Origin: Beverwykella pulmonaria
Lineage: Eukaryota; Ascomycota; Dothideomycetes; Pleosporales; Melanommataceae
Length of the DNA stretch: 64,000 nucleotides
Assembly (NCBI GenBank): GCA_001599595.1
Contig: BCHH01000016.1
Span: 801,901 to 865,900, forward strand
Direction of reading: 5' to 3'
The translations under genes and the position numbers were made by a program. Position 1 is the stretch's first letter; the number at the start of each line of letters is the position of its first letter. Below, piece after piece: positions 3,623-58,654 of this stretch. Below the pieces are notes generated by a model. That model had not been told where the DNA came from, made no database searches, and worked only from the letters and a program-made list of their open reading frames with translations.

Positions 3623-3624
3623 TA

Positions 3625-3686
3625 ACGTATTCGATAAGCGAGCGGCCAGGACAAGCGAGTGGCCACCCTCACCAACAAAACGCGAC
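3625..3686 (+). repeat. Left TIR of the pogo/Fot1 element
   Basis: Matches the reverse complement of 4688-4749 at 61 of 62 positions. The direct repeats GCGAG(C/T)GGCCAGGACAA and GCGAGTGGCC inside it may be transposase binding sites (inference). The partner TIR is 4688-4749. Confidence 0.93.
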
Positions 3687-3768
3687 GCGTCAACTTGGAA
3701 CCACTATAGCTCAACCACCCACCATGCAATTAGTGCAAAACGAAGGCAGGATATTGCTAGCTATATTA

Positions 3769-4626
3769 GCTATGGATCAGAACCAAATTCAAAGCGCAAA
3801 CCTCGCAGCAGCAACCTACGAAGTTCCCTGAACAACGCTAAGACGACAACGCGCTGGAACGACTGCACGACGCGATTGTGTGCCCAAATCAAGGAGGCTC
3901 ACTAAGCCTGAGGAATCAATTATTATTTAACACATACTTGAACTGGATTCCCAAGGATTTGCGCCTAGACTGAGCGAGGTGTGAGATATGGCCAACAAAC
4001 TACTTGCTAAGCGCGCTGCTAGCAAGGTTGGCATTAAGTGGCCAGAGAACTTTGTTAAGCGCACGCTAGAGCTTAAAACACAATTTAATTGAAAGCATGA
4101 TCGCCAGAGAGCTCTATGTAAGGATCTAGAGATTATTGTGCTGTGGTTTGAGCTTGTACGCAATACAAAGGCAAAGTACAGCATCTAAGATGAAGACACC
4201 TACAACTTTAATAAAACTAGCAACTAGATGGGCGTTATTGCAACAGGAAAAGTTGTTACAGGCTCTAAGAGACGCAATTGGCTAAAAGCTGTACAACCTG
4301 GTGATCGCAAATGGGCCACAGTTATCTATAGTATCAACGCATGTGTTACTGCGTGATCAAGTGGCTCGCCTTTAGAAGGCAAGTGAAGCTGCAACAAAGT
4401 GTAGAGCGCGCAAAAAAAGGCGAATTCAGAAGCAAAGGACCCTAACAAAGGCAGAGGGTGCTGATATAATTGCTTAGCAGAACGTTGATGCACAACTTGA
4501 GGGCGAAACGCGTTAGAGTAGGGCACGCGCTGGGGGGAACGCACAACAGCAGACGCGCTGCAGCCACTGTAAAGAAACTGGACACAATATTTGTACTTGT
4601 CAAAAGGATGCAGGAACTACTGTAGA
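3769..4626 (+). pseudogene. Fot1/pogo transposase remnant (N- and C-terminal pieces)
   Basis: From the ATG at 3769 the frame reads the N-terminal region of a Fot1-like DDE transposase with several stops. Recognisable pieces are KPEESIII, GFAPRLSEV, ANKLLAKRAA, KVGIKWPENFVKRTLELKT (the Tc5/CENP-B-type helix-turn-helix), LWFELVRNTKAKY, DEDTYNFNKT and GVIATGKVVTGS. The third block contains the position of the first catalytic aspartate, read here as NFNKT rather than NFDET. After about 4340 the sequence jumps to the C-terminal tail: basic residues and a CCHC knuckle (CSHCKETGHNICTC). The central catalytic segment is absent. Stops sit at glutamine and arginine positions, as RIP would make them. 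Confidence 0.85.
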
Positions 4627-4918
4627 TTAGTTTGCAAGTTGTAGATAGTCTATACTTGCAGGCGTTGTGGAGTTATTCTGTTTTGCAGTCGCGTTTTGTT
4701 GGTGAGGGTGGCCACTCGCTTGTCCTGGCCACTCGCTTATCGAATACGTTAGTGATAGTGTTCCATCAATGTTTCGAACCATGCATAGAGTATGCTGTTT
4801 CAAATGTGGAAACCATACTTATACCGGTATGATGATGGACATTCACATATCGAGAAAAACTCCTATGTTTTCGACATTTGATGATGATACATCTGGAATG
4901 ACCTTCGGCCAAATCGCA

Positions 4919-7040: not shown

Positions 7041-8012
7041 ATGGCTCCATTTCCCTCCCCAACCGCCACTTGGCACACAGAGACATACCAATCCATTTCT
7101 CCCTCTCGTCCCGAGCTCTCTGCCAAAGGCAAGACCGTGCTAGTCACAGGAGGTGGCACCGGCATCGGTGCTGAAACTGCTCGCTACTTCGCCAAGGCAG
7201 GCGCATCTCGCATCGCCCTCCTAGGCCGTAGAGAACACCCTCTTCTCGACACCAAAGCCTCCATCAAGCGCGAGTTCAATCACGTTGAGGTATTTGTGGC
7301 CTCCACAGATGTCACAAACAAGAGCGAAGTAGACGAGGCCTTTGCGAAATTTGCCGGCAACGGAAAAATCCACGTCTTGGTCAGCAACGCAGCGATGATC
7401 GGGCCTCAGGACCCGGTGAAGAGTGTCGACGCAGACAAGTTCCTCGATGCCATTCAGAAAAATCTCAAAGGGGCAGTGTTCGTGGCGCAGGCTTTTGTTC
7501 GTTACGCAGCGAAAGATGCAGTCGCTATAAATATCTCTTCTTCCGCTGCGCATTTGAATTTTGGTCCTATGTTTGGGTCATACAATGTTGCCAAGTTAGC
7601 AGTATTTCGACTTTGGGATTCTTTAGCCTTTGCGAACCCGGAGTTGAGCGTTTTCCATCTCCAGCCCGGCGTAGTGGACACTGATATGAATAAAGAAGCT
7701 GGAGGTGTTGCTGCGATGGGCTTCGAAGATCACGGTATGTGGAATTCTAGCTTGGGGAGAGAATTATCACGCAAACTGACTTTTGACTTAGTTTCTCTAC
7801 CAGCGAGCTTTAATGTTTGGCTTGCAAGCCCAGAGGCCCGTTTCTTGAAGGGCAAGTTTCTGTGGGCCAATTGGGATGTGGATGAGCTCAAAGCCCGAGC
7901 CAAAGAGATTGAGGCGAGCCAGCAATTTAATATTGGGCTTGTCGGGTGGCCATTTGGTTATGACAAGTGGAATTTTAAGACTACTGATGGTGCTTGGCTA
8001 GAAACGCCATAG
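7041..8012 (+). CDS. Short-chain dehydrogenase/reductase (SDR)
   Basis: An intron-free 323-residue protein starts at an ATG in good context (CACCATGG). It is a classical SDR, an NAD(P)-dependent oxidoreductase acting on alcohols or ketones. The nucleotide-binding motif TGGGTGIG is at residues about 36-43, followed by an Arg-Arg that may favour NADPH (LLGRRE). The NAA motif is present as SNAA near residue 116. The catalytic Ser lies in ISSSAA and the Tyr-Lys pair in YNVAK (residues about 180-184). A product-side motif PGVVDTDMN is at about 213. The length exceeds a minimal SDR (about 250), with an extra C-terminal region containing WASPEARFLKGKFLWANWDV-type sequence common in fungal SDRs. Substrate cannot be told. 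It shares a promoter with the divergent regulator, suggesting inducible expression. Confidence 0.93.
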   Translation: MAPFPSPTATWHTETYQSISPSRPELSAKGKTVLVTGGGTGIGAETARYFAKAGASRIALLGRREHPLLDTKASIKREFNHVEVFVASTDVTNKSEVDEAFAKFAGNGKIHVLVSNAAMIGPQDPVKSVDADKFLDAIQKNLKGAVFVAQAFVRYAAKDAVAINISSSAAHLNFGPMFGSYNVAKLAVFRLWDSLAFANPELSVFHLQPGVVDTDMNKEAGGVAAMGFEDHGMWNSSLGRELSRKLTFDLVSLPASFNVWLASPEARFLKGKFLWANWDVDELKARAKEIEASQQFNIGLVGWPFGYDKWNFKTTDGAWLETP

Positions 8013-11374: not shown

Positions 11375-11595
11375 AATCGAGCACTTAAATGAGTCACGGG
11401 GTTCTGAATCGGATGCCGGGCTATTTAATATAGCCGCTAGAATGATTCCATGATGAAAACGAGCCGCAGGACTGGTGGATGATCAGAAATCAAACCTCGG
11501 GGAGTTCGGAAAACTTCTCGGCCGATTACCGGTAGTCACTAGCGCTAAGCTAACGCTACGGTAATTGGTCGACTAATTGGCTCAACTCGTCTAAG

Positions 11596-11684
11596 TACGG
11601 AAAGCGGATATGAGCAAACCGGCAACAATTCAAGCGAGGAAAATCAAAACTCAAAACTCAAAACGCACAATGCAAAATCAACAA
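11596..11684 (+). repeat. Left terminal inverted repeat of the large element
   Basis: These 89 bp are identical to the reverse complement of 23331-23419. The similarity continues imperfectly for about 45 bp further (CACATGC, ATTTCAATAATTAAA). It contains a tandem AAAACTC repeat. Perfect identity contrasts with the heavy mutation of the interior. Confidence 0.93.
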
Positions 11685-11800
11685 GCACATGCGCGCACCT
11701 GCAAATAATTTCAATAATTAAAACAATACTTAATAATTTGGGAAAACATGGCCGGTATTAGTTCTAGAGAAAGGTATTAGTCTTTAAATAACAAATATGT

Positions 11801-13363
11801 ATAGGGCGCCCACCAATCAACCCAGATATCTTCCAGGAGTTTCTTACAAGGCACTGCGAAGAAGGTGCGACGTACAAAGATCTGATAGCGTATTGCATTG
11901 AGGAGATAGGGTACTCGCCGTCAGAGCGTAAAATTCGTGAATAGTTTAAAGAGTGGGGGGTCTCCCAGAGGATGTTACCTGACGTAACGCTGCGAATAAA
12001 GTACTGTATTATTGCGCTATTCTTTGTAGGGAACAACACTGACAAGGAGATAGTTAAGATGCTAAGAGCTGAGGATGGGATATTAATTAATAAGTACAAG
12101 ATTCGTCGCTTGCGGAAAGAATTGGGGTTAGTTCGTTAAGCTCGTGGGGTTGACGCTTGTATGCGCATGGAGAACTCAATCAGGCAATACGTAAAAGCAT
12201 TATTAAAAAGAGGTGTATTAGACGGACTTAGTAAACAGATGCTTTATATTTAGGCAAAGCAAAAAGGCTTTATATTTGCAAGAGACGCACTGTTTAGGGA
12301 ATACAAGCTTGTAAACCCTAAAGGTGTTAGGCGCCGCAACAAGGACGCCTAAAGAAGAAAGGGGGAGTACATTGTTCTAGGTCTAAATTAGCTGTAGTCT
12401 ATTAATAGTTATTTAAAGCTGCAGCCATACAGCTTTAAAATATACGCTAGCATTAATGCCTTCTCTTAGAAAATCCTATAGGTGTATATTAGAATATTAG
12501 GTAACACTGCTATTAGTGTTGGAAATTAGTATTTAAAGCACGTTAGGGCTACTAGCTAACACCCTTGCTTTATTTAATTAGATTGTAGCAAAGAAACCTA
12601 CATTCTTGCCTTTAGCTAGCTACAACTCTTACAGGCAGCCTTTAAGAATAAGGACCTTAAGATAAAGGACTGCTACATGTATAGTACTAGTACAGCAAAT
12701 TAGAGAATTAAATCCTAGTAGCAGCAGATATCAAGAGGAATCCTCTTTTAGTAGAGGGTAAGCGCATGTTTTTCTCCTGTCCTAGAACTAATACTAAACT
12801 AATACCCTAATTTGCACATATTCTAGTATTACTATTAACACATAACAGATGTACTTTAGAGGATTATTAGACAATAGTCTATTTATAAAGGCTAATATTG
12901 TAGATTAGGTGGCTATGTTTGTAGTATACATAGACATTATCTAAAGAGAAATTGCAGAGTATGTTAACATCTAGAACACCTACTATATTTAAAAGCAGAA
13001 GAATTAGCCTAATATTGTTGTTAGGAAGCCTAGGGTATTGTATAGTGCCCTAGACTATCCTGCAAAGGAGGAAGCTATATTACTTAGGTAGGAGTGATAT
13101 AACTCTATTAGACAGAAAGTTCTAGAATATAATTTGGACAAGTATCTGCTAGAAGAAACGCAAGCCTAGTGCAACACCTAACTACAGGAGCTTAGCTTTA
13201 ACCTACAGAATGCTAAGATAGAGTTTCCAACTCAGCGTGCTAAGCCATTTAAACACATCTATTTAGAGATGTGTAAGAGAATTTCTAAGCACATAGTAAT
13301 TAGGAAACAACTAATACTAGGGTTACTAGACAAGCCAACTAGTGTATAGGAGTAGAAAGTAAG
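11801..13363 (+). pseudogene. Integrase-core (rve/DDE) transposase, RIP-inactivated
   Basis: The frame opens at ATA (11801, a mutated ATG) with GRPPINPDIFQEF and reads a protein of roughly 500 residues with many stops. An N-terminal helical/HTH region (LPDVTLRIKYCIIALFFVGN, DKEIVKMLRAEDGILINKYK) leads to GVRRRNKDA, RRKGEYIVLGLN, SINSYLKLQPYSFKIYASIN and CYMYSTSTAN, the core-domain blocks of an integrase-like transposase family widespread in Pezizomycotina. The first catalytic aspartate of the family lies in a VDGYLKL/IDGHLKL-type motif and reads INSYLKL here; the second is in AAIDAYS, here ASINAFS. The Asn residues fit GAT/GAC to AAT/AAC changes. A C-terminal region (FKHIYLEMCKRI) ends near 13350. 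One likely intron is at about 12760-12830. As the only transposition enzyme seen, it is the presumed mobiliser of the element. Confidence 0.8.
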
Positions 13364-13734
13364 TGCTTATTATATTTTGTTTGTTACATGCTAACAGTAT
13401 CTAGCCACTAGGTGTAGTAGATAATAGTACAGAGGTTCTAGGTGTAGAAAAGCCTATACTTTTAACAGACGACACTAAGTTTATTGTAGATAGTAACCTT
13501 AAACTGCCATCTAATATAGGCTTAGAGCATTTTTATTTCCACAAAACAGATAATGTTAGTAAGCAAGGGTAACAAGGAGCGCTAGGCAAGGGTAAAACCC
13601 ACAACCTGCAATATTAAATATTTACCCTTTTGTTTCTTGTCTTACAATAGCTTTTACTGTTATTAGTTTTATCTTGCTGTTTTGCTATACCAACTATACC
13701 CCTTACTTTGTTCTGCCCTACACTAGGGCATAAT

Positions 13735-15330
13735 CACAAAAATATAAACATTGTATATCAACGTTGTTCTGCGTGTGGTCAAGAGAACAATAAATAGAAT
13801 AGTGTTACAGTGCTACCAGCAGCATCTAGAGTAGGACCACAACTACAGCCGCAGAATAAAAGAGCTGCTTCTATTATTACTAATACTAAAATAGTTAATC
13901 TATTATTGCTAAAAAACTCCTAAGGCATGTACATTGTAGGATTACAAACATAGTCTAGAAAATAGGAAGGAGAACTTACACCTAACAGGTCTAACACAGA
14001 TTGTGCACATGCACAGATTGCATTAGCTGTAGCAGGTGACGCACAAGCCTGCATTGCAGTATCTAACGCCCTCTACTAATCCCTAGATAGATGTCTAGCA
14101 TTCTAAAAAACTATTAAGAAAGCTAGCATAAAGACATTCTTAAGCAAACTTGCTGCGTACAAGATAAAGACACATCTGTTACCTCCTGTAGAATTCTACA
14201 AACAAACTTAGATTAAGGTGGCCTGCTTTAATGTTGACTAGGTTCTACTAGTTAATAGTAGCGCGCCTGTGTTTAAGAGATGTGTTAAGAGTTGTAAGTG
14301 TCTATTATGTCCTAGGCTAATACTAATTAGCATTGGACTAATACTAGGCTAATACTATCTCTAGATAAGTTTAGTTGCCTCCTCCAAGACAAAGATATTA
14401 AAGACAAATCAACCTTTATTAGGAACACCCTACTTGCTAATGTAGGACTTGTGCGGCTAGGCAATATTAAGAATTGCACCCTTAACCTTGCAACTGCAGG
14501 GAAGGAGGGGTTGTTACTAACATACATTGTAGCTAAATACACCTGCAATACAACTCTATACAAGATGCTAGGAACTAACATATTCCCAAGAGATAGGAAA
14601 GGGACATATACAATTGTTGTCTTGTTTAAACTATTTGTTTAGGAAGACAAGGAGGACGTAACGCAGATTAGTTACAGGGTAGCTAGAATGGCTTCTCCTG
14701 CTGTCACCCTGTTAGCTAAAAGGGCTAAGCTAGTATCTACAGCTAAGAAAGCTATTAAGAAGGAGCCTAGTATTAAGAAAGAGGCAATCTTACTATATGT
14801 AAAGAACTAAGCCTAGATGCTAAATCATACGTTAGTGACTAGAAGAAAGAGAACTTCTAGACTAATACTAGTAACTAATACTACTAACAATAAGGACAAC
14901 TTCACAACAACTAATAGTGGAGATAATAATAAAAATAGCAAAGAGATTAAAGAATTAGATTTAACAGTTGACAAATATTCAACACCAAAAGCTTTAAATA
15001 AGGGGAAGGGGAAAGGGAAGGGGAAGTAGGGAGTTTCTTAGGTTAAGAGTCTACAGCTACAGCAGACTCCTAAGGCTAATACAGACTCTAACAGTAAAAT
15101 AGGACTAGAGTTAGAGGAGGAAGGCAATAGAGACAATGTAGCTGCAAAGGTAGTCCCTTATCACCTCCTAAGGCGTAGGCTAGCTTATGCAAGTGCTAGC
15201 ACAGAAGAAGTAGTTACCTACAAGAGGACAGGAAAGATGCGCATTAATAGTAAGTAAGTAACACAGAAAAGGCAAGAGGAAAAGGAGGCTAAGATAGTGC
15301 ACTATAGCAGAGAGCTCTTCCCAAAATAGG
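13735..15330 (+). pseudogene. Unknown element gene B
   Basis: One coding frame can be followed with stops at glutamine-like positions through about 500 residues. An early CSACGQEN could be half of a zinc-binding site. Then come AQIALAVAGDAQACIAVSNA and FLSKLAAYKIKTHLLPPVEF, an intron at about 14295-14363 (GTAAGT...CTCTAG), and KSTFIRNTLLANVGLVRLGN, LTYIVAKYTCNTTLYKMLG and TNIFPRDRKGTYTIVVLF. The tail is Lys-rich with (KG) repeats and acidic stretches. I do not recognise the family. Its place between the transposase and H3-like gene 1 and equal degree of RIP suggest it entered with the element rather than later. Confidence 0.5.
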
Positions 15331-15378
15331 GTTTGTAGCTAGGTCTCTTGTTCATCACACATCTCTTTCTTTCCTTTA

Positions 15379-15546
15379 GTAGCTAGATATAACAAAATTG
15401 CAACAGTCTACTGCCAAACCTCATCATCTTTATAAACGTCACCTAAGACCTTTAGATCCTCCTCCCCTAGTGCATTGCCGCTTTAGACGTCGCATGGCCG
15501 CGAGTCACCTTCTACCCTCTTGATTTTCTATATCACACCTTTACTC
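15379..15546 (+). repeat. Dispersed repeat, copy 2 of 3
   Basis: Same segment as 2669-2830, more mutated. It lies between the 3' end of gene B and the 3' end of H3-like gene 1. Confidence 0.7.
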
Positions 15547-15829
15547 CACCACAACATAGCACAGCTATAAGTTGCATCTACCCTCTAGTTTCTAAATTCC
15601 ACCCTCTATTACACCTTAGTAGACAGCACATTGTATTAAGTTTTGTATTAAAGTAGTTTAGTAGGCTACTGTAGAGAAAAGACTAATAGATATCTTAAGC
15701 ATCTAAACTAATTAAACCCTCCCAAAAACTTAACAGAAATGTCCATCTAAATAAGGCACCTAACTTTTACCCTATAAATCTGTGCCTATTATGTATTAAA
15801 ATAGAATAGCCTTAAAGAGCTTAAAAGAG

Positions 15830-16642
15830 TTATGCTTTAAAAAGGTAACTAACTATTTTGTGCATGTTTTTTCTAATTCTTAGAGCAAGGTTGATGTCCT
15901 TTTGCATAATAGTAATACGCTTAGCGTGAATTGCTGCAAGGTTTGCGTCTAGAATAGATGTTAGACCAATTCTATATACAAATACTATTAAACTTACTCT
16001 TAAATAGTCAAATAAGGAAAGACTTAGTAGCTTCCTATAGAGCATGCAGTGCAGACTATTAGAAGCAGAGATCCTTATGTCTAGACACACTGCAACTAAT
16101 TTCTCAAACAAGTCTCTAAAAGGGTACAAATAGGATTAAGAAGCTAGTACTTATTTAGTAGAACTTGATTTCTTAAAGCGCAGCCGCTAACACAGATAAG
16201 TAGGTAATAACAGGATATTAGATACTAACTTACTTGAATACTTAGTACGTTGAACATTCCTCCCAAGCTTAGGTATACTCTTTTCAACGCAATTATAGAC
16301 AGGCGCACAATTAATCTTGTTACTTGCTAGGACTTTCAACCTCTTGTTTCTGTTGCAAGCTTCCCTTTGTCTCTCGCCAAGTGCTGTATACGTTAGTACA
16401 AAACAATACTAATACTAATACTTATACCACTTACCTTTTCCAGCAGCCTCTTCAACCTCTTCCTTTAATATACCTTTGCCAGAGATCTTAGAACCAACTT
16501 GTTGTTCTCTAGGTAGAGGTTGCTTGCAAGGTGTTTTTCTAGCTAGCTTTGCAGGTTCCTTGTGGGGTGCTTTTGCTGCTTTTGCAGCAATCCTCTACTT
16601 CTTAAAGTAATCTTTGCGCATAAATTGCTTTGTCAGAGCCAT
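15830..16642 (-). pseudogene. Divergent histone H3-like gene 1 in the transposon
   Basis: Four exons (16642-16435, 16383-16234, 16186-15998, 15948-15830) join through GT-AG introns with exact phase to 222 codons including the stop. The N-terminus MALTKQFMRK parallels the H3 start MARTKQTARK and a Lys-rich tail follows. The core is unmistakable: TAAL-EIKFY-ISTSFLI against TVALREIRRYQKSTELLI of H3, then PF-RLV-EIS against PFQRLVREIA, SALHAL-EATKSFLI, and NANLAAIHAKRITIMQKDI against DTNLAAIHAKRVTIMPKDI; dashes mark stop codons. Each stop sits where H3 has Gln or Arg, as CAG/CGA mutated to TAG/TGA. Canonical H3 is about 136 residues; this one is 221, with an expanded segment between tail and core. 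If once functional it would have entered nucleosomes or served as an H3 mimic. It is now inactive. Confidence 0.9.
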
Positions 16643-17409
16643 AATAGCAGTATTAGACAGTATTAGGCTAGCAGCGCAGCAATGTAAAGATGCGGTGCAA
16701 ATGTAGTACAGAAATGGTTTAAAACCTTAAATGTAGCTGTTTGCATAGTTAGCAGGTGCTAAATTGCATAGAAGTAAACGCATGATTGAACTAGTCGCGA
16801 ATACACTATCGCGACAGCAGATAGGTCACGTTTTAATGATTGAGGACTGTAAGATAGGCTAACACAATAGTAAAATTGCTGTGCGCCAGCTGCTAGAAGG
16901 GTATTAGCCATTGCGCAGTATAGTATTAGTATACTAGAGTACTAACTAAATTGTAAATTACTGTACGCACAAAGGTTGAAATTGTTGCTGTTGTAGGAGT
17001 GGCTGTGGTGGTTAAATATCACTTATAGAAAATTATAAACCAAATTAGCACGTGATTTAATTACGTAATTAGCGCACTGTCTTAACTTTTCACTGCAACA
17101 AAACATAATAAACACTAACAATTAAATAACCTTAAAACACAACAACTTTCTTACTAAACGTCTAATTAGTACAGTTTCTACTGTCCTAAGTTGTGCGTTA
17201 ACAAATACTCTTAGCCTAATACGCGTATTTGCGTATTTAAGTCTTTAGTTTCTTGCCAAGTGTTACAGTTATAGCACGTTAATCTTGACCTTCAACCCTT
17301 AGTTGCATTACTACTACTACTATCCTAACAACTAAAATTGTCTACTGTATTTAACTAATACTCTGCTAATACTATAGAGTCTCTTTCTAACAAAGTAAAG
17401 CTAGATGTT

Positions 17410-18885
17410 ACCTTGCCCAAAAACCCTAAAAAGTTATATTTAACAAATCTAAACATAGTTAAGAATTAGAATGCGTATTAGAAGGCGCAGGATAATAAGA
17501 AATTTATTATCTAGGCCAAGAATTCAACAAACACTCAGATTTCAAAATACAAGAAAAAGCTGTTAGCTTGGCTAGAAGAACAAGTAGCCTTTAATTAAAT
17601 AGACAAACCAGCGCAAGCTCTCTAAGAAAAGGAACTGTTGCTCTAGGCTGCTCAGGAAAAAATTCCTATCCTGTACGTAGTATTAGTATGGTATTAGCGC
17701 ATCTGCTAATATTTAATTTGTAGCTTTAAGAAGGGCATCTATTGGACGCAGAAGGTTAGAAATTAATACCTAGATATAACTGTACCTACTAAGAACAATA
17801 TTATTGCACAGTTAGATCTAGGTAACTACTACAGCACTACTAGTTGTAACAGTGTAGATGCAAGAGATGTTAAACAAGAGGTAGACTTGCCTGCAAATGA
17901 TCTGACTGCGTTGCCGCATCTTGTTAGTTTCCTTAAAGAAAAACCACAACAATTCTTTAAGGATACTGCACTAGTCATGCTCTACAATTAGTGGAAGACA
18001 GTTTAGATTGCATAGACTACAGCACTTAAGTCTGCTATTAAGAAGTTCCGCAGACTTTACTTCAAGGATATTGCTTTACTTATTATGAGCTTGAGCTAGA
18101 ATAAGTTTGAGGTATAAACATTTACACTGCGTTGGCTAATACCTGTACTAATACCACGCGTAGCAATATCTTAGGGGTATGACTTGCAAGAAATCAACAG
18201 ATAAAGTATTGTCATTCTACTCAAGCATAAATAGGAAAGACAAGCTACTGCTTAGAAGCAAATTTAATTAGGTATGTTTAGTATTAGTATGTAATATTAG
18301 CCTAATACTAACATCTCTTAGGGAGAAGTTGTGGATATTATTTGTTCTAAGGTCTGTTGCCTTACTAAAGCTTTAGGAACTAATACTTCTTGCTAGGAGC
18401 TAGTGCTAACTATTCCCTTTACGCTCTAGTTTACTTGTCTTAAGAGAGCTATAATAGGTCTTGTTGCTTAGAGCTAATTAATTGGCAAACTTAAGAATTG
18501 CAAAATCTAGTTAGCTAGTATTTACAGATATCTACCTCTTCCAGGCATCTATAATTTATAGACCTTAAACAATATTAAGCATCCTTTTAGTATTGGCATA
18601 CACTCTAGTCAGGATGCCTACTACATGCTTAGTATGCTTTACAATAAGGATACCTGGCCTGCTAATCTTATTCCTTAGATTAAGATTAAACATATAGACT
18701 ACCTTACTGTTTAATACAAGATTAATAAGGGGTACAGCACTAAGATATTAAGGAAGGAATTTAGGGAGAACAAATTAAATAACGTTAAGGCTTGCAATAA
18801 TACCTTTAAGGAAAATATAATAAAGGAAGACAAGGGAGAGAAGAAAGAAAGAGAGAAAGACAATAGAGAGTTAATAAACTAGGTT
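17410..18885 (+). pseudogene. Unknown element gene C
   Basis: A frame with stops at glutamine-like positions runs through at least three exons. Clear introns are about 17677-17728 (GTACGT...TTGTAG) and 18272-18320 (GTATGT...CTCTTAG). Readable pieces include NTQISKYKKKLLAWLEEQVA, ALPHLVSFLKEKPQQFFKDT, LKSAIKKFRRLYFKDIALLI, SIYRYLPLPGIYNL, NIKHPFSIGIHSSQDAYYML, and a Lys/Glu-rich tail. The product would be roughly 430-480 residues and helical. I do not recognise it. The introns contain the repeated word CTAATACTA, shared with the other genes of the element. Confidence 0.5.
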
Positions 18886-18949
18886 TTAACTTAGGTCTTT
18901 TCTTGCACTCTACAGTCTATTATAGTAGTTATAGGGTGTAGCAAAGGGT

Positions 18950-19070
18950 GGAAACAGAAATAGGAGGGTAAGGGGGTAACTTGCAGCTGTGCGATGTCTA
19001 AAGCAGCAATACACTAAACAAAAATGTAGGAAATGTGTTTGATAGCAGTTTGGTTCTATTTTGTTGTATG
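18950..19070 (-). repeat. Dispersed repeat, copy 3 of 3 (inverted)
   Basis: The reverse complement shares GTGTATTGCTGCTTTAGACA, TCGCACAGCTGC and the flanking ACAACAAAAT with the copies at 2669-2830 and 15379-15546. It lies just beyond the 3' end of gene C, so copies 2 and 3 form an inverted pair about 3.4 kb apart around H3-like gene 1 and gene C. Confidence 0.65.
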
Positions 19071-19439
19071 TATTTTAAAGAAAGGGCTATATATATGTAC
19101 ACAGAATAAATAAATTAATTGTTGTCTTGTTTATAGTCTAGTAGTTTTTTTGTTGTTCCTCTTTTTTTTTAATAGGTTAGGTGTTGGACGCATATTTATA
19201 TTGTGTTAAGTAATTGCGAAGCAAACAGCTAAAAGAGAAACTAAGGCCCTTTCTAGGTACTTAGGATAGCTGCAAGGAGCCTCTAAAAGCATTAATTGTT
19301 GTTATTAACAGCTATAGAGGCAGATAAGAATTGGCGCAGGCGCCAACTTATTTCTGCAAGTGCTGTATTCTTTCTTTAATTATTATGTATTGCAGTTAAT
19401 TACATGCAGTTTCTAGGCAGACTAATACTAGCCTAATAC

Positions 19440-20960
19440 TAAACCTTCTCTATAGTTTGAACCTGTCCAACTCTAGTAAATAACCTTTCCCTATCTTAGC
19501 CTATACACCTAATACCACCTAATACCTTTAGTTCAGCTGCTTAGGCGCTTAGGTCTCCTTACCCTAAGACTCCTATTCATTGTCTAATACATTCTCCACG
19601 TTATCTATAGCATACATACTGCTCTGCCTCTTATCATCTTGCTAGAGTAACCCTAAATTTAGGAATTTGTTAATGTTAGGCATCTCTATATTCTAATTGT
19701 CTTCCCTAGCTTCTATTAGATTAACATCTATAGCATCTTTATCCTCCAAAACTCCTTCTATTTGATTATCTTCCACAGCAGGTTTGTTTTTAGCCATTTT
19801 GTCTAACTTATTGTTCTCTTTTAGCAATAGCTTAACAATATTGTCCAGCAGGTCTGCAGCCCTAGTCATGTTAATAGCTGTAAGCAGAAAGTCCCTTCTG
19901 TAGTCCTTAATAGTCTGTAGTTTATAGACACTAGGAAGTTTAGACAGCTAATTGTTGTTAAAAAGCTTGAACTTGGAACCCTAGAATGTTCTGCTATGTT
20001 AAGCTTAGTAGAGTAGAGATAGTAGGACGCGCTTGGGACTAGTGAATAGCATTGAGAATAGCAGTATTAGTACACCTAAGTTGCTGTTAATTGCGATATC
20101 ATTCTTATACGCAACTTGTGTCTTTTTATATGCTTTTTGGACGGCTACAATCTAGGAATTGTTAGCAATAGCCTAATACCTAGATGAATGCTCAACGTAC
20201 CTGTTTAAAGCGCTGCTTGAGCTTGCTAAGCATTTCAACTACTATAGACAGGATATTTGGGTCAAGCCAGTTCATATATTCCTGCTAAGTATTAGTCTTA
20301 GTATTAGGCTATCTAGAATTTACTTGCCTTAAGTTAGTTAAGTGTTATGCGCAGTAGAAATGCCCTTAAGCCTTAAGTGCGTATAACACTTAATTTCCAA
20401 ACCACTATATTAAGCTAGCTGTTCTAGTATCACTTAATAGACAGCTAGTATCCAAGGTTGGCCTACAACTCCTTCTCTGTGCGTAAGTCTTGTTTATCTT
20501 AGTCCTAGTTTGCGTTTCTAGTGCTTTTTTGGACGCTACCTTCCTCTTAACTGCTTAGTAGAGAGCTAACAGCAATAGTAGCCGTTGCGCTATTAATAAT
20601 ATGCTGGGGCGGCATAAACTTATTGTCAAGAAGCCAGACACGCGTCTGTGCTTTAAACAGAGTGTCTAGGGATAGGTAATAAGATTTAGGGTTGCTAGTG
20701 CGCGCTATTGCTTGCTAAGTCTAGAGCAAGTTTTGCTTTGCCCTGTATACTGTTAGCTCTGCCTAATACTAACCTAATACTTATCTTATACCTAGTATTA
20801 AGGGCTGCATTCTTGCACTAATCCCTTAGGTCCTTCTCTAGCTAGTCACATTTTAATTTGTTGGATTCTGCATCTAGTAGATGTTAGATACGCAGCTTAA
20901 ACTTGTTCTTCTATAGCTTTAAAGACGCCTTTATGGCATTAGTCTAAGTATTAGCTATTC
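19440..20960 (-). pseudogene. Unknown element gene D
   Basis: On the minus strand a degenerate coding sequence can be followed from about 20950: NAIKASLKL, KNKFKLRI, HLLDAESNKLKCD, an intron near 20760-20795 (TAATACTAACCTAATAC on the plus strand), TRVWLLDNKFMPPQHIINSA, RPTLDTSCLLSDTRTASLI, YMNWLDPNILSIVVEMLSKL and further pieces down to about 19440. Stops are at Gln/Arg-like positions. The protein would be about 400 residues. I do not recognise it. It is convergent with gene C and tail-to-tail across about 500 bp of AT-rich spacer. Confidence 0.45.
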
Positions 20961-21123
20961 TGCTGTGGGTCTTACTGTGTTATTAGTATTTTTTCCCCTT
21001 ATAACTAAGAAGTCTTCACTAGTTTTCTTTGCGCAAATAGCATTGTTTTTAACAGTATTTAGATTTGTAGAGTATTTGCTAGCTTGTTTCTTCTGTTTTT
21101 AATTAGTTATAATGCACGCGTGT

Positions 21124-21550
21124 TGTAACGGCGCAGGATATCAGGACGATCGGATTCGGGTGCGAATCACTACCGAGGCATATGGGAGTGCACGAGTGAG
21201 AACGAAATACCCAAGATTGAATTGACACCTATAGGCCGGGTACGAAAGGATATTCAAAAGCTGCCTGATCTAACTAACGACACGACTGGTTTATATACAC
21301 GAAGAGAGATGAGAAAGAACAAAGCCGAGGTACTATAGGTTCGGATAAGGACCCGTATCGGAGTTGCATCAGGCGCTGGTCAGGAACCGAGGTAATACAG
21401 GTTCGGGTATGGATCGAGCCTGTATCGGAGTTGAGTGGGGAGCAGGTCGGGAACCGAAGTCCTAGCGGTTCGGGTAGGGATAGGATCTGTATCGGGATCG
21501 GGCAGGGAGCGGCTCGGTCACGTGATGGAACGATTGTTCGAATCGTTACA
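21124..21550 (+). mobile_element. Solo LTR nested in the large transposon
   Basis: This 427-bp insert starts TGTAACG and ends CGTTACA (TG...CA with inverted tips) and is flanked by a 5-bp duplication CGTGT (21119-21123 and 21551-21555), the hallmark of an LTR retrotransposon. No internal coding region is left, so it is a solo LTR from LTR-LTR recombination. A TATA-like TTTATATACACG (about 21290) sets the orientation as plus. Its base composition (many CGG, GGTTCGGG and CACGTGAC words) differs sharply from the AT-rich surroundings and shows no RIP, so it probably inserted after the host element had been mutated. Confidence 0.88.
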
Positions 21551-22186
21551 CGTGTGGTATTAGCAGGTATTAGTTGAGTATTATGCTAATTAGCTAGTAA
21601 TTGTGGCTAGGTTAAATTAAGTGCAGGTGTTATGGAGTTTTAGTGTGTTTGTGTGAAGCTAACTTAATAATTCACCCTAGCAAAATTTTAGGTAAAAGGC
21701 AAACAGAGAAAGTGCTTCGCGCTTTATTACCAAAACTTAACTTCTAGCTATTATTAAGACCTCTCTAAAACTGCGTAACGTTGCCAGTTAGAATCTGCTA
21801 ATAATACAAGTATTAGGCTGGGTATTAGTCTTCATGCAAGTAAGTAGCTTTAGAATATATTCTTAGTTTGTAATCTCTAACTAATTGTTAGATTTTGTTT
21901 TTTCTAGCTTTATTACAATTGGCTTTGCTTTGCAATAAGCAGAGAATCAGGACTAATAGTATTAGACTAGGTATTAGTTAAGAATTTCTCGCATTTTTTT
22001 CTACCTTTACCTGTTATCTCACCTTCACCTTCACCTTCACCTACCTAACTTTTTACTATTCTGAAACCTTTATATCTTCTCTTTAGCAACTAACCTTCTT
22101 CCTCTACCACTTACTTTTTGCGTTAATTGTCAACTCCTGTTTGTTGCAACTAAATTACTATTACTGTCTATTATATCTACACTATT

Positions 22187-22880
22187 ATAGCAAGAACTTG
22201 CCCTCCCAATCACCCACTTGGAGCAACTAGTAATCTTAGTATTAGTACTAGTATTAGCTATTTGCTAATAGCTGTTTTAGCCTTTGGCAGGAAGATTGCT
22301 ACCAAATCACCACACAAGTCTGCACCTAAAAAGCCTGCTAAACGCAAGAACATTTTGTATAATAAGAATGCCGTTAAAGCACCTGTCTACCGTGGAGCTA
22401 CCACTAGTAGACCTAAGAAGGTAAAAGCAAGGCCTGGTCGTAAGTTCTATGTATAGTATTATCTAAATTTTTAACTAATACTAGTATTAGGCTCTGCTCT
22501 CCGTAAGATCTAACACTACTAGTAATGCATTAGCACTCTCATCCCAAAAACCCAATTCATTCGCCTTGTTTATAAAATTCTAGAGGATTTCCAAAATACT
22601 AAAGGCAAAAAACTTATCAAACAGTTCTAATTAAATGCACTCACTGCTTTGCAAGAGGCAGCTAAGGCATTTATAACTATATGCTTAACAGGTATGCTAA
22701 TATCATCTTTAGTATTAATCTAGTATTGTTCTAATAACTTCAGCTTGCAACTTGTCTACTATTTACACTAAGCAGGTTACCATCCAGCAGAAGGACTTCC
22801 AACATGCTTTCTAGATTGCTAATATTCTCAGCAACTATGTCTAGATCATCCGCGATCACCGCTCAAAGCATCATCAGTAG
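22187..22880 (+). pseudogene. Divergent histone H3-like gene 2 in the transposon
   Basis: Four exons (22187-22229, 22281-22439, 22491-22691, 22744-22880) join with exact phase to 180 codons including the stop. The start reads ATA GCA AGA ACT: a mutated ATG followed by ART, as in the H3 start MART. RKIATKSPHKSAPKKPAKRK parallels the H3 tail RKQLATKAARKSAP. After RPG comes SALRKI-HY against VALREIRRYQ, then TLIPKTQFIRLVYKILEDF against LLIRKLPFQRLVREIAQDF, LNALTALQEAAKAFI, and ACNLSTIYTKQVTIQQKDF against DTNLAAIHAKRVTIMPKDI. Stops replace Gln codons. Introns 2 and 3 lie at the same places as in gene 1 (after the RPG-equivalent and before the NL motif). An alternative stop at 22842-22844 would shorten the tail. 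The Lys4 position of H3 is not conserved (MARTC). Confidence 0.9.
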
Positions 22881-23330
22881 ATAAATAAGGCGCAATCCTC
22901 AACTAGCAATATGGGTGTTAGTAAGTATTAGGCTATATATTGGTGTCTGCGAGGAGATATCTAAGCATACAACTAGTTCTAGTTTCTGACTTTGGGGACA
23001 GGCATTGGGCAGGTATCAGACAGGTAGAGCTGAGGAATTGGTTGATTTGGCACTACTTACAGTTTTTCATAGTCTAAATATAATAGTCTACTTACTTTTA
23101 AACATTACAAATGCAAGGACACCATAAGATATTCTAGCTTTAAACCTCGCTCTGTATTGTCAAACTTATTTACAAACATGTGGTCTATTTAACACAGTAT
23201 TAGCCACAGTATTAGTTCTTTTAAGTTTAGTGTACAAGTGTTGGAGCATTATTATTTATGTTTTAATTGTCTACTTGATTTATACTTAATATGATTTAAT
23301 TATTGAAATAATTTTTAGGTGTGCATGTAT

Positions 23331-23438
23331 TTGTTGATTTTGCATTGTGCGTTTTGAGTTTTGAGTTTTGATTTTCCTCGCTTGAATTGTTGCCGGTTTG
23401 CTCATATCCGCTTTCCGTACTCATATCCGCTTTCCGTA
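23331..23438 (-). repeat. Right terminal inverted repeat with duplicated 19-bp tip
   Basis: Read from the right end, the 19-mer TACGGAAAGCGGATATGAG occurs twice in tandem, then the remaining 70 bp match the left repeat exactly. The extra copy makes this TIR 108 bp. The target duplication TCTAAG follows the outer copy, so the outer copy belonged to the inserted element. Confidence 0.92.
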
Positions 23439-23783
23439 TCTAAGTCGTGAAGGTGAGAAAGGAGTATGAGAAATAAAGTCTGCGAGATTGTAAAAGAGAT
23501 TTCTACAGAGTGAAAGTCGAAAACAGAAAGGATACGGGCAATTCAATTCATCCTCGTCTTACGTTGACAAATCGTCAATGCGATTAGATCGGAAATGGTT
23601 TATAGATGGGACGCTTGAATAATGAATTCATTTGAAGCGAATGTCTGCTCTCATTTTTATGTACAGCATTAAACTCTCCTTCCAGTGGCACTTGGTAGCC
23701 TTCGATGCCAATATGCGGGTCCATTGGCGGCAATCAACAATTGGGATGGTCTGTGATCTGTTCATCGACGTCAGAATTATTCT

Positions 23784-31623: not shown

Positions 31624-32296
31624 CAGAGTTGGCAACAATCAATTCAATCAACTATTCCTTATCCAATTGATTTGATTGATGAAGCTGCCCGTAGCAGATT
31701 GATTTGATTGACTTGATAGGGTAGAGGAGGGTGAATTGAATTGGAAATTGATTGGTAATTGATGATCGATTATCAAATCCGTATCTGATTTGTATGGGGG
31801 TTTGTGAGAGCAGTACTAGCAGGGAACGGAACGAAGAGATGGATCAGAGGTAAACAAGCTTGATTCATCAGAGTCGAGACGAATCCTTCAGGATACTCGG
31901 AGGATTTGAAGAAAGCTATATATGGTATGTCACGTGACTTGTCGACCCAGATGCCTCCAAAGATACGTCACGTGATCTTTAAGCACACGGCCTGATAGGC
32001 CTCCAAGGGGCCTCTGCAGGAGACCCTCCGGGAACAGAATGTTATACAAGGTGAACACTTACTGGGTCTGGTCCGTACTAAGGCGGAGCGTAAGCGTAGG
32101 TGTCGTAGGATTATTCTGTGAGGTTTAAAGACGATGATATAAGACAGAGGGGTGGTAAATCCAATCAATAAATTGACTAACTAACTTGCTGTATTAATCT
32201 GGGTAAGAGGCGAGTGAAGTTATTTAAGTTGACTACAAAGAGCAAACATAACATAGGGAACTGCCTTCCTTATATATTTCCTCTTTGCCTATAGAA

Positions 32297-32800
32297 TCCT
32301 AAGTCTCCCATCCCTTAGCGGGATATCAGGGATCCTTCAATTCTCCTAAGTCTCCCATCCCTTGGCGGGATATCAAGGATCCTCCAATTCTCCTGAGTCT
32401 CCTATCCCTTGGCGGGATATCAAGGATCTTCTAATTCTCCCAAGTTTCCCCTTCCTTAGTGGGATCTCTAGGATCCTTTGATTCTCCTGAGTTTCCCCTT
32501 CCTTAGCAGGATCTCTAGGATCCTTCAATTCTCCTGAGTTTCCCCTTCCTTGGCGNNNNNNNNNNNNNNNNNNNNNNNNNNNNNNNNNNNNNNNNNNNNN
32601 NNNNNNNNNNNNNNNNNNNNNNNNNNNNNNNNNNNNNNNNNNNNNNNNNNNNNNNNNNNNNNNNNNNNNNNNNNNNNNNNCCCTTCCTTGGCGGAATCTC
32701 TAGGATCCTTTGATTCTCCCAAGTTTCCCCTTCCTTGGCGGGATCTCTAGGATCCTTTGATTCTCCTGAGTTTCCTGTGTCTTGGCGGGATATCTTCTGT
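32297..32800. repeat. 47-bp minisatellite with an assembly gap
   Basis: A 47-bp unit (start CTCCTAAGTCTCCC, end TTCAATT) is repeated about ten times counting the gap. Units shift gradually from a GGGATATCA(A/G)GGATCC form on the left to a GGATCTCTAGGATCC form on the right. Bases 32556-32680 are N, so the true copy number is unknown. Scattered single Ns at 32859-32916 and at five further sites in the transposase show low consensus quality in this element. Confidence 0.9.
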
Positions 32801-32959
32801 CACGTGCCTCGCTTACCTGCGCGAATCCTCGCTGTTCTTTTGCGCCCGTCTGCGCGCCNTGCTGCGCCNGTTGACAGGGTTTTGTTTGTTNGTTGTTNGN
32901 GTTNGTTCCTNATCTNCAGCCCGCATCTGTGCAACTTCTTCAAACTGTAACACAGAAGT

Positions 32960-35413
32960 GTCCCTCACAGGTTTCTAGTAGTCAAGATCCCACTTAGATA
33001 TACTGTATATATCATCAATCTTTTGCTCTACCATATCAGTGTAATTAAAGTCCCTGGATACTCAAAATCTAGCCCTTGTCTAGGATTGTACACATTAAAT
33101 TGCTGCAAGTAGTTAAGGGCTTAGTTTCCTACGCTTAGGTTCTAAAAGATCGCCAATCTTAGAGAACATACGCTCACACGCGCAGCTTAATGCTAGAATA
33201 GATAGTACGTTAATTGCCATCTTAGAGAGATAAGGGTAACAAGGTTTGAGAGTTATCCAATAGGCAATTAGGTCAATTAAATGTGCGTGTTCCTAGGGCA
33301 AATTAGGCTTGTAGAGCTTCCAGCGTTAAAACTCATCTAGATCCTTAGGGTTAATTTGGTCTTCTTGAACAGGATTTACGTGTTAATTAATAGCCTCTTA
33401 AAGCCCTAAAATCTTGACCTTTTTACAGGGTAGTTGCTGCTGCCCATTATGAGAGCTCTTTGGTTTGTATTCCCTCTCCCACAGAGATTTAAAAGCTGCG
33501 TTACTTGTGGCCAGCTAGGTAGGTTGATTTATCCATAATCTATCGCAGTAGTGCTTGTAGTAAGGGTGGAGGACTGTTGCAGCATAATAGGCAGGAGAAT
33601 TGTCAAGCATTTCCCAATACTTTTAAGCTTTATTCTAGGCAGCCTTGACGTTGATAGCTAGATGATCTTCAGGGCTATCTACCTTATTAAAATCCACCTC
33701 TTTATACTGCTCTACAAGGTCCTTGTAGTAATTAAGCAATTGTTTAAGTGTAGGGATAATCTCATGGATAGCACCAAATCGTCCAGATTTCCCTCTACCT
33801 TCAAGTCGCGAAGTGGCTTCCTTCAAGGGGTGTAGAACCTCAATGTACTAAGTAATAATAGCCCAATTGTGAGCTGTTAATCCTGTTGATCTCATCCAAT
33901 CTGGCGCATCTGGCTCCTTGTTGTTGCAACTCTGTGCGTAAGCATCTTTAGTTTTAATAGCCTTAATGTGATATTGAATGTATGCATCCAGAGGCCCATG
34001 TAACTCAACAGCACGCTCAAAGGAGCTACAAAATAAATTCCACCTTGTAATAACAGGCTTAACAGGCTCTTTAAGCTTGTAAGGCTGCTGCAATTTCTGT
34101 TCCTTAGCCTCTGCTTCCTAGAAGTCGCGTAGTTTATTATACTGTTGTAGTGTTTTGATGTGATGCAGAACGTCAATAAGCACCCTAAGTGCCCTAAATT
34201 TCTGCCACTCCTTTAAGAAATCCTCCTCAATTTAATACTGCGATTAATTGTTGTCAAATGTGTTACTATCTATCCTAAAAATAATTGTTTGGCCTACTAG
34301 ATTAAGTATGTGGGGGCCGCAGCGCAGTCAACGTTTATTGGCATTAAACCTATATTCAACACCCAAACACTCAACTACCATATTATTGTTTGTCGCATTG
34401 TCTAAAACAAAGTATCCAATCTTGTTTAAGCTTATTTCAAAGCTTAGAAGAATCCCCTGTATTGCTTTGGCAATCCTTGCTCCAGTATGTGCGCTAGAGA
34501 GTTGTNGAAGNGCNATAGGGATGTCTTTAATAATGCCTAAGGAATTAACATAATGCGCAACTATCCCACAAAACCCTTTCTTCCCGCCCTTTATAGTCCA
34601 TCCGTCAAAGGATATATGTATTTTGCTTATAGATTTAGACAACTTATTTATAATTTGCGGGTGCAGATAGTCGTATAGTCGCATAATGTACCAAGAAACA
34701 CTGTAGTGGCTCTTCTATAACACATCTGCGGCCTCTAGGCTTGCAAGCAGCATTATAGCTTTAAAGGTAGGGCTTTCAAACTCACTCAGAGGATAATTAT
34801 TATCAACTATCCACTCAATTACAGCTAATTAGAAGCGTTGTACGTCAAAGTTTCCCATTGCGTTAGCTGCTCGTTGTAATAGTTCAATTCCACTACCTAT
34901 AATATATTCCAAGGATTTCTGCCTAGGCTCCATCCAAACACCTACGCGCCCATCTTGAGTATAGCCGTGCCCACAGATCTTTTTACGTAGATGAGCAGCA
35001 GCAGTAGAGGTTAATAGAGTAACTTCAAATCTGCCGCCTCCTCCACTATTAATTATCTTGTGTTGATGGCAGTAGGCGCATATAAAGAATATCCGTGATG
35101 GGGCTGCTCTCAAGCACACCCTGTATCCATGCCTATAAATCCACGACTTCTTGTGTTTCTGTGTACAGAGAGGGGCCATGTAACTGCGTAGGCNATCCCA
35201 ATCAATCCCATCAAAGTTATCCTCAAATCAGGCGTCAAAATCTTCGTCAGAGGGCTCAGGGGTCGCATCGGTTGCAGAGGGTGCCAGGGAGGGAGAAATC
35301 GCAGGGGAGACATCTACGCGATCGCGGAGCTCCTCCTCAAACGTTTGAGTAGCCTGTGAGTCGCCGTCAACAGGGCGCGCAGTACGTNGACTAAGGTGTA
35401 ATCGTTGGCTCAT
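32960..35413 (-). pseudogene. hAT transposase, degenerate
   Basis: From MSQRLHLS at 35413 the frame reads, with stops, an acidic N-terminal region, a BED-like zinc finger (FICAYCHQH ... HLRKKICGHGY), then the RNase H-like core: KIHISFDGWTIKGGKKGFCG (first catalytic Asp) and KIGYFVLDNATNNNMVVECL (second Asp). The inserted helical domain follows (KPVITRWNLFCSSFERAVEL, TSRLEGRGKSGRFGAIHEII). The C-terminal dimerisation block reads NVLSILALSCACERMFSKIG. All key blocks of a fungal hAT transposase are therefore present. At least six in-frame stops and several ambiguous bases occur, so it is inactive as assembled. Frame breaks are few compared with the large element upstream. Confidence 0.85.
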
Positions 35414-40007: not shown

Positions 40008-41002
40008 GATGGGCGGCAGACCAGCTCGCGCGGCGATGCTGGGACAAAGAAAAGGTAGGGAGCGGACGGGCAGACGGGCAGCGTAATGAAAATGGAACTG
40101 TGGAAGATGGAGATGCAGGAGGGAGAGGGAGGGAAGACGGGGAGGGAGGAGGATGGATGGTGAGAGGGAGCGTAGCTATGGCGATGGAGCTCTTATCAGG
40201 GCGGCCAAACGCAGGTGACGCATGACTGGCTTTGCCAAGATCGGTGCCTTCCAGCGGCGGTGCGACGCGAGGCTGGGGCGCGCCTTTCCGCGTTTGGAGC
40301 TAGTGTGAGTGCGCCAACCATAGCACAACGCTGTGTGGATGCACCGCCGTTGATACAGGCAGTTGGGGCGAGGAGGACTGAGATGTGAGCTTAGGGAAAT
40401 CAGCATGTGATTGTTGCTGCATAGTATTGAATACCATCTTACTATCTTGCCGTGACGCCAGTGAACCATCGTGCTGTGTATGGACAGGACCTGTGCCTGA
40501 GGGCTGAACACGCCCCAGCTCTCCACCTCGTACCCCCGATACGGTGCTCGGAGGGGTGCTGTTCACGCGGCAGCCTCACGGTCTGTCAGCCGCCTCAGAT
40601 AGCTGTGCGCGTGAGTCGGAGTAGGGATCGCACCGCAAGCTCCCACAAGCTCCCCGGTAGTGTCTCTTGAGCTTCCCGGCGTGCATTCCTGTGTCCATTG
40701 CTTGGCCACTGGTCCGAGTGCTGGCTGTGCTGCCGCTGCGTGTATCAAACTGCCTAGCCTCAGCACCACGGCTCTCTCTCTCTCGCGCTGACCCACTGTG
40801 CCTGGCAACCTCAAACCTCAACCGCGGCGTAATCCCGCTCGGCGCACATTCACCTCCCACCAAGCCCACACCCAGCCGAGCACCCTCAGCTCCCTCCTCT
40901 CACTGCTGATGTGCAGCCGCGCCGCCAGCGAGACATGACTCTGTTTTCTCCCCCGCGCCCTCCTTCCACGAATTTCCTCAACGGCCGTGGCCTCGATTGA
41001 AC
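40008..41002. promoter_or_regulatory. Divergent promoter region, subtilase and BEACH genes
   Basis: 995 bp between two genes transcribed apart. It contains a purine-rich tract on the plus strand at 40080-40190 (GGGAGGGAGG-like), a CT-rich tract near 40770, and no obvious TATA box, as is usual for housekeeping genes. Short open frames here carry no recognisable product. Confidence 0.5.
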
Positions 41003-57976: not shown

Positions 57977-58654
57977 TCAGAGGAGTTCTTTGCGCGTAGT
58001 CAGTGTAACGGTAGCCAAGGCAGGCTAATTGCATCTTTTGGCGGGGGAGCAGCGCACTCCAGGCGTAGTCGTAAGTGTGGAGAAGCCTGAGGCACTTCTG
58101 GTGGAGATACTGGGGCGTAGAAAACTGGATAAGCTACATTTGCGGACGATGCAGGTTTCTGCGAAGCCTTTCTCTATCGTGGGTCTTAACCTGGCGCGTA
58201 AAATGAATGTGCAGATGGTAGGTGTCAGCTTGGATGTCGAGAGAAAGATCCCGCCAGCCCACTTCGCTAACCGAAAGTGAGCATGACCCCTGTCATACTT
58301 TCCTAGCTCACGTCTCACGTGCAGCCCTGGTGACATTGCCATTGAATACTTCAACCTCACGGCTTCGGTGAGAAATGCTGACTACAAACAAAGCGCCTAC
58401 ATACGAGCAGCTTCGTACAAACATCAAACATTGAGAACCTCGTCCAGCTTGACATCTCGTCCATCTGCACCACGCATCGTGTCTGGCTTATTCTCGTTTC
58501 CACATCGGAGCCCTCTGCCAGGCCCTGCTAGCTCACCCCGCACTCTCTCGGGTTTAACGGGGAGCCACTTAAAACATTGATCTCTATGACCACGCCGTAA
58601 TCCCGATTCGATGCAAAATTGCTTTCTTACTCCAACTTTGGATTCAGTTTCACC
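57977..58654. promoter_or_regulatory. Divergent promoter region, regulator and monooxygenase
   Basis: 678 bp between genes transcribed apart. CGG triplets, the usual half-sites of Zn2Cys6 proteins, occur here (for example GGCGGGGGAG near 58040 and TTGCGGACGATG near 58140), but no clear paired site stands out. No gene is evident. Confidence 0.4.

Follow-up and report, generated by a model that had tools for sequence, protein, structure and literature searches.

An IS3EU-like transposon carrying two histone H3-like genes in Beverwykella pulmonaria

Histone cargo and IS3EU elements described so far

Histone H3 cargo is already known from fungal transposons. In Pyrenophora tritici-repentis, Manning et al. 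(2013) described an H3-like gene, H3L, with ESTs, in a hAT element, and Dhillon et al. (2019) reported that hAT elements of six Mycosphaerellaceae carry one or two H3-like sequences each, which lack introns and were killed by RIP (excerpts of PMC3538342 and PMC6710886). An earlier note on the DNA studied here had held that histone cargo was not described for fungal DNA transposons, a claim that these accounts of hAT elements overturn. IS3EU elements have TA..TA termini and 6-bp target duplications, and the termini of rust IS3EU families read TAYGG..CCRTA (excerpts of PMC10045372 and PMC12730594). There are IS3EU families with TET/JBP and alpha-kinase cargo, the epigenetic TET/JBP genes occurring in several transposon superfamilies (excerpts of PMC12730594), and Styx, also IS3EU, has genes with GATA, CCHC and DUF3577 domains (excerpts of PMC10853768).

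The window, by which we mean the whole stretch of 64,000 nucleotides analysed here, holds an IS3EU-like element that carries two H3-like genes, H3L-1 and H3L-2. As in P. tritici-repentis, an H3-like gene lies between the inverted repeats of a fungal DNA transposon and its product has extra tail residues and is neither H3 nor CenH3; however, the hAT elements there are about 5.6 or 2.3 kb long with one H3L each, whereas the element in the window is IS3EU-like, 11.8 kb long and has two, and they occur in 26 near-identical copies that show little damage and have ESTs, whereas here there are two copies, both damaged (comparison with the excerpted text of PMC3538342). RIP-killed H3-like sequences, one to two per element and in AT-rich blocks, are likewise found in the hAT elements of Pseudocercospora, Cercospora and Sphaerulina. 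These Mycosphaerellaceae elements, however, have 8-bp duplications where the window element has IS3EU-type ends and 6-bp duplications, and their H3-like sequences are read as intronless copies of the host H3, while H3L-1 and H3L-2 have introns at places where the host H3 has none (excerpts of PMC6710886). The TET/JBP-bearing IS3EU elements and Styx resemble the window element in being IS3EU with extra genes, but in the portions of PMC12730594 and PMC10853768 on which we draw no histone gene is described, and IS3EU elements with a histone gene did not turn up in the open-access literature, which was covered in part and leaves most subscription journals outside. What differs here is thus the superfamily, the introns, the presence of two divergent H3 genes in one element, and the occurrence of IS3EU-borne and hAT-like-borne H3L genes in one genome.

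The element and its two H3-like genes

The element (11596-23438; Table 1) is an AT-rich block of 36.6% G+C, with inverted repeats at its limits and H3L-1 inside it. Its ends read TACGG...CCGTA, its terminal inverted repeats have 99-nt arms that are 98% complementary in the window, the tips being aligned in other copies, and a 6-bp target duplication, TCTAAG, stands on either side. The same ends together with 6-bp duplications were found in four other elements in which both tips and flanks are readable, where the duplications are GACTTT at the second copy of the element on C4, CTTTCG at L034, TACTCG at L036 and TGGATG at L037. It is because of these ends and 6-bp duplications, both as in IS3EU, that we call the element IS3EU-like; it has neither the 8-bp duplication of hAT elements nor an intronless copy of a host histone gene.

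Table 1. Features of the element and of its H3-like genes, in window positions
Feature	Positions	Strand	Remarks
Left target site duplication TCTAAG	11590..11595	.	same letters as 23439-23444
Left terminal inverted repeat, starts TACGGAAAGC	11596..11692	+	99-nt arms, 98% complementary
Damaged transposase-like frame, start and end not fixed	11780..12790	+	weak HTH_21, Clr5
Possible damaged frame, limits approximate	14316..15330	+	long one-frame stretch, few stops
H3L-1 exon 4, core end and C-terminus	15830..15948	-	Pfam Histone 25.8 bits
H3L-1 exon 3, core helices alphaN to alpha2	15998..16186	-	Pfam Histone 44.0 bits
H3L-1 exon 2, residues added to H3 between its tail and core	16234..16383	-	
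H3L-1 exon 1, tail start MALTKQ	16435..16642	-	
Possible damaged frame, probably multi-exon, limits approximate	17330..18890	+	
Possible damaged frame, limits approximate	19480..21000	-	
Insertion, window copy only (C4 copy without it)	21127..21547	.	51.8% G+C, not RIP-like
H3L-2 exon 1	22187..22229	+	start codon lost in window copy, present in C4 copy
H3L-2 exon 2, tail and linker	22281..22439	+	
H3L-2 exon 3, histone core	22491..22691	+	Pfam Histone 18.2 bits, below cut-off
H3L-2 exon 4, provisional end at the first stop downstream of NYV	22744..22844	+	
Right terminal inverted repeat, ends CCGTA	23323..23419	-	inverted-repeat pairing, tips
Right tip duplicated in tandem	23420..23438	-	
Right target site duplication TCTAAG	23439..23444	.	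matches left duplication

The transposase-like frame matches HTH_21 at 18.1 bits and Clr5 at 18.9 bits, both below the Pfam cut-offs, and no DDE domain was recognised in it by the Pfam scan. Weak HTH_21 and Clr5 matches are what an IS3-like transposase, the DDD/E enzyme of the IS3EU superfamily, would be expected to show. In the window copy 18 stops interrupt the frame; the C4 copy has 13. The three further possible coding stretches gave no Pfam match above cut-off in a six-frame scan. The motif TATTAG/CTAATA is repeated many times throughout the element, introns included, and the 421-base insertion resembles DNA that occurs in L034 and close to an element end on C25 (L040). IS3EU-like tips with an extra inner copy of the tip were also seen in short elements of about 0.6 to 1.9 kb (L034, L036, L037 and L039). 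An element on C1 (C1:4803744-4812757) has only its ends and subterminal DNA in common with the window element, with no H3 match listed in it.

H3L-1 runs on the minus strand from a start codon at 16642 to a stop codon that ends at 15830. The earlier note had proposed a four-exon, 221-codon H3-like gene inside a transposon at this place, and we found its coordinates to be exact: the three introns (51, 47 and 49 nt) are all GT...AG, the coding sequence of 666 nt amounts to 221 codons and a stop, and the gene lies within an element bounded by inverted repeats and target duplications. The protein exceeds canonical H3 (136 aa) by 85 residues, the note having put about 80 between tail and core. In the window copy the frame is broken by nine in-frame stops before its end. 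The note had placed every stop opposite a Gln or Arg of H3, which is borne out for six of the nine; as read from the alignment, the others fall at A15, S86 and position 102, the last being G in vertebrate H3 and S in the host H3.

The histone identity of H3L-1 is carried by several comparisons. The profile search that the note had called for matched Pfam Histone at exon 3 with 44.0 bits (E 3.3e-11) against a curated cut-off of 26.4, and the spliced protein, with X at the stops, matched solved H3 chains of the PDB at E 1.2e-22; the best 60 of 175 matches, inspected by name, were all H3 and none CENP-A. In phmmer comparisons with the host H3, the real element gave two matches (25.3 and 18.9 bits), whereas not one was reported for 100 shuffled versions of it with dinucleotides preserved. 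A protein database search with the same spliced sequence returned 189 candidates, none at E <=0.01, from a collection that appears to contain little or no eukaryotic H3, so that the homologues compared are those of this genome. The host has its own H3 gene at C8:263751-264092 and a CENP-A-like gene at C11:474223-474592, so that H3L-1 is neither the ordinary H3 locus of the host nor its CENP-A locus. Chance similarity or a host gene was therefore rejected, being contradicted by the structure match, the shuffles and the host loci; nothing was found in its favour, and its probability is negligible.

H3L-2 is a different H3-like gene in the same element. When its spliced C4 copy was compared with solved structures, the best match was Cnp1 of S. 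pombe (E 5.3e-16, 62.5 bits), ahead of H3 by 1.3 bits (61.2 bits). Histone matches in the element are confined to the two H3L genes, with no H2A, H2B or H4 in a Pfam search of all six frames. These observations bear on a structural role, in which the H3L proteins would package or protect the DNA of the element or aid its transposase. The presence of two different H3L genes in some 11.8 kb, together in both copies, would suit such a role, but the element offers no H2A, H2B or H4 partner and nothing links the H3L proteins to the transposase, and we regard it as a slim prospect.

Matches to H3L-1 occur at only two places in the genome, the window and C4:2194975-2207488, and H3L-2 is matched over its length at the same two. 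The one other copy of the element found has both genes, and neither gene is intact in either copy. The TpA/ApT ratio is 1.59 in the element against 0.74 in the left flank, and the aligned blocks of the two copies differ by 490 transitions and 3 transversions. The following base is common to both copies for 421 of the 490 transitions (324 A, 85 G, 6 T and 6 C), leaving 69 unclassed by following base; the pattern is that of RIP. Four in-frame stops interrupt H3L-1 in the C4 copy, and all four are also among the nine stops of the window copy. Our data thus show that the transposase-like frame, H3L-1 and H3L-2 are RIP-damaged in the window copy, with stops in the C4 copy as well.

A third H3-like gene and common introns

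A third gene, H3L-3, is present at four places in the genome (on C2, on C16 near 75.5 kb, on C8, and on C4 near 1.79 Mb). It matches H3 at E 2.8e-36, and the 60 solved-structure matches shown were H3. Its copies (L048/L049, L050/L051, L052/L053 and L054/L055) have one repeat end in common, TAGGCTGGCGAATGGG, and differ at the other. This end and an opposed partner flank two sequences, each about 1.55 kb long, of which one has an 8-bp duplication and the other has none. On C4 a variant of the end is followed, about 0.5 kb further in, by a hAT dimerisation domain. A 5'-truncated retroelement, as the single common end of the four copies might indicate, is less likely than a hAT-like repeat because of the opposed terminal repeat pairs, the 8-bp duplication and the nearby hAT domain. 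The repeat is more likely hAT-like, its own transposase and left end not having been seen in stretches that are partly N, and H3L-3, unlike the genes of the window element, may thus belong to the hAT-borne kind. Single N bases are scattered across H3L-3 copies (L020, L013), several where another copy has C, and these are perhaps ambiguity codes of collapsed repeats.

In standard H3 numbering, and as read by eye, each of the three H3L genes is interrupted in phase 1 at T45 and at D106. H3L-1 and H3L-2 have three introns each and H3L-3 has two, whereas the introns of the host H3 stand at R8 and position 120 and the CENP-A-like gene has a core intron near residue 70. The chance of two randomly placed core introns coinciding is 2.4e-5 by a naive estimate, which splice-site bias would raise. 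The cores, computed with the C4 copies of H3L-1 and H3L-2, are identical at 34/92 positions between H3L-1 and H3L-2, 38/93 between H3L-1 and H3L-3 and 42/90 between H3L-2 and H3L-3. Since the T45 and D106 introns are common to the three genes and absent from the host H3 and CENP-A-like genes, it is likely that H3L-1, H3L-2 and H3L-3 derive from one intron-bearing H3 gene that dwelt in transposons and moved between transposon kinds, as opposed to repeated captures from the host. This reading is weakened by the tree, which joins H3L-2 with H3L-3 (87%) and leaves H3L-1 apart from them, beside the CENP-A-like protein (47%). Two repeat kinds of one genome nevertheless carry H3-like genes with two intron positions in common.

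The introns also bear on passive transduplication, in which H3 genes would have been captured by accident and be useless to the element, which is the published reading of the hAT-borne H3-like sequences of Mycosphaerellaceae (excerpts of PMC6710886). The divergent tails and loop 1 of the H3L proteins are in keeping with it, as is the finding that none of five H3L sequences agreed significantly better with five reference histones at their invariant columns than at their variable ones. However, the introns are unlike those of the host H3, which rules out a retrocopy of the H3 gene that the host has today, and are alike across two repeat kinds. Moreover, the frames are open save for RIP-type stops at identities of about 34-42 in 90-93, and codon positions 1 and 2 are better conserved than position 3 in two of the three pairs (H3L-1/H3L-3, p 7e-6; H3L-2/H3L-3, p 0.009), both of which point to past selection; the codon-position signal was not significant for H3L-1/H3L-2 (p 0.11). 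We consider accidental capture rather unlikely. If the H3L genes do not serve the element, their common introns still call the published host-retrocopy picture into question.

A role like that of CENP-A has also to be weighed, in which H3L would give the element chromatin like that of a centromere or would direct it to centromeres or to heterochromatin. A loop 1 longer than that of H3 is a CENP-A trait. Compared with H3, loop 1 is longer by 2 in H3L-1 and H3L-3 and by 6 in H3L-2, as it is by 4 in the host CENP-A-like protein and by 6 in S. pombe Cnp1; H3L-1 has 'NANL' and 'QKD' where the host CENP-A-like protein has 'DANL' and 'QQKD', and the top structure match of H3L-2 is, as given above, Cnp1. 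Against this, the proteins begin like H3 (MALTKQ, MARTR and MARTK), the inspected best 60 of 175 structure matches of H3L-1 hold no CENP-A, the tree gives the placing of H3L-1 next to the CENP-A-like protein no more than 47% and sets H3L-2 and H3L-3 elsewhere, and the CENP-A-type intron is absent from the H3L genes. Such a role is accordingly improbable, and the H3L genes fit neither the H3 nor the CENP-A group clearly, as Manning et al. said of theirs (excerpts of PMC3538342).

Altered tails and a possible anti-silencing role

The stretch R8-G12 is altered in all three H3L genes, reading RKDYF in H3L-1, RPLGA in H3L-2 and RPGRG in H3L-3. In ungapped alignment, the tail of H3L-1 keeps K4, R8, K9, K14, K23 and K27, while S10 is replaced by D and S28 by E in the window and C4 copies alike. 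In H3L-2, R stands in place of K4 and P in place of K9, and K27-S28 is preserved if one gap is allowed. H3L-3 keeps K4, R8, K14 and K18, but its K9 is replaced by P and its S10 and K27 are each replaced by G. For H3L-1 and for H3L-3, none of 20000 shuffled tails attained the ungapped identity of the real tail to H3; for H3L-2, 1956 of 20000 did. In Neurospora, the H3K9 methylase DIM-5 requires R8-G12 of H3 in vitro. An extra H3 gene with K9L, K9R, S10A, S10E, T11A or G12P cuts DNA methylation there despite the presence of wild-type H3, whereas S10G is recessive and K27L and S28A have no effect (excerpts of PMC3248561).

As R8-G12, needed by DIM-5, is altered in all three genes, our tentatively preferred mechanism, possible though short of probable, is that the H3L genes encode dominant anti-silencing histones that aid the element. 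Intact H3L variants would be made alongside the host H3, much as ESTs are reported for the related H3L of P. tritici-repentis (excerpts of PMC3538342), and would be incorporated into nucleosomes. Their tails, with residues 9-12 changed, would not be normally methylated at K9; their presence would then lessen silencing and DNA methylation dominantly, and weaker silencing would favour expression and movement of the element. The tail changes in the three genes are a suggestive sign of this, not proof. Several observations stand against it: both the window and the C4 copies were hit by RIP, so that any protection by H3L failed; R8 and K9 themselves are kept in H3L-1; S10G, the change that stands beside K9P in H3L-3, is recessive on its own in Neurospora (excerpts of PMC3248561); and the tail changes come from only three genes, whose tails have diverged overall.

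A wider form of the proposal, which we hold to be doubtful, is that fungal transposons of different superfamilies may share one ancient mobile H3 lineage that lacks the normal H3K9 site and would dilute the heterochromatin mark, acting as a dominant anti-silencing factor. Anti-silencing H3L would be the histone counterpart of transposon-borne TET/JBP genes. If H3L serves the element, transposons would counter silencing by supplying an altered substrate of the mark besides enzymes that edit marks. Because dominant effects on DNA methylation have been shown in Neurospora for single changes in the H3 tail (excerpts of PMC3248561), the anti-silencing idea is directly testable.

Apart from the element, the window contains host genes and other repeats. 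A short-chain dehydrogenase lies at 7041-8009, Armadillo-like and BEACH/WD40 frames lie at 40997-43690 and 44681-49033, and a Zn2Cys6 protein and an FMO-like enzyme are encoded at 56912-57976 and 58619-60442. An inverted repeat pair at 3623-4751 (64 nt, 98% complementary, 1001 nt apart) is possibly a small element. In an AT-rich stretch at about 32-35 kb there is a damaged hAT dimerisation domain on the minus strand (33083-33307, 59.6 bits, three stops), and 47-base tandem repeats, of which seven copies were found, occupy 32250-32834.
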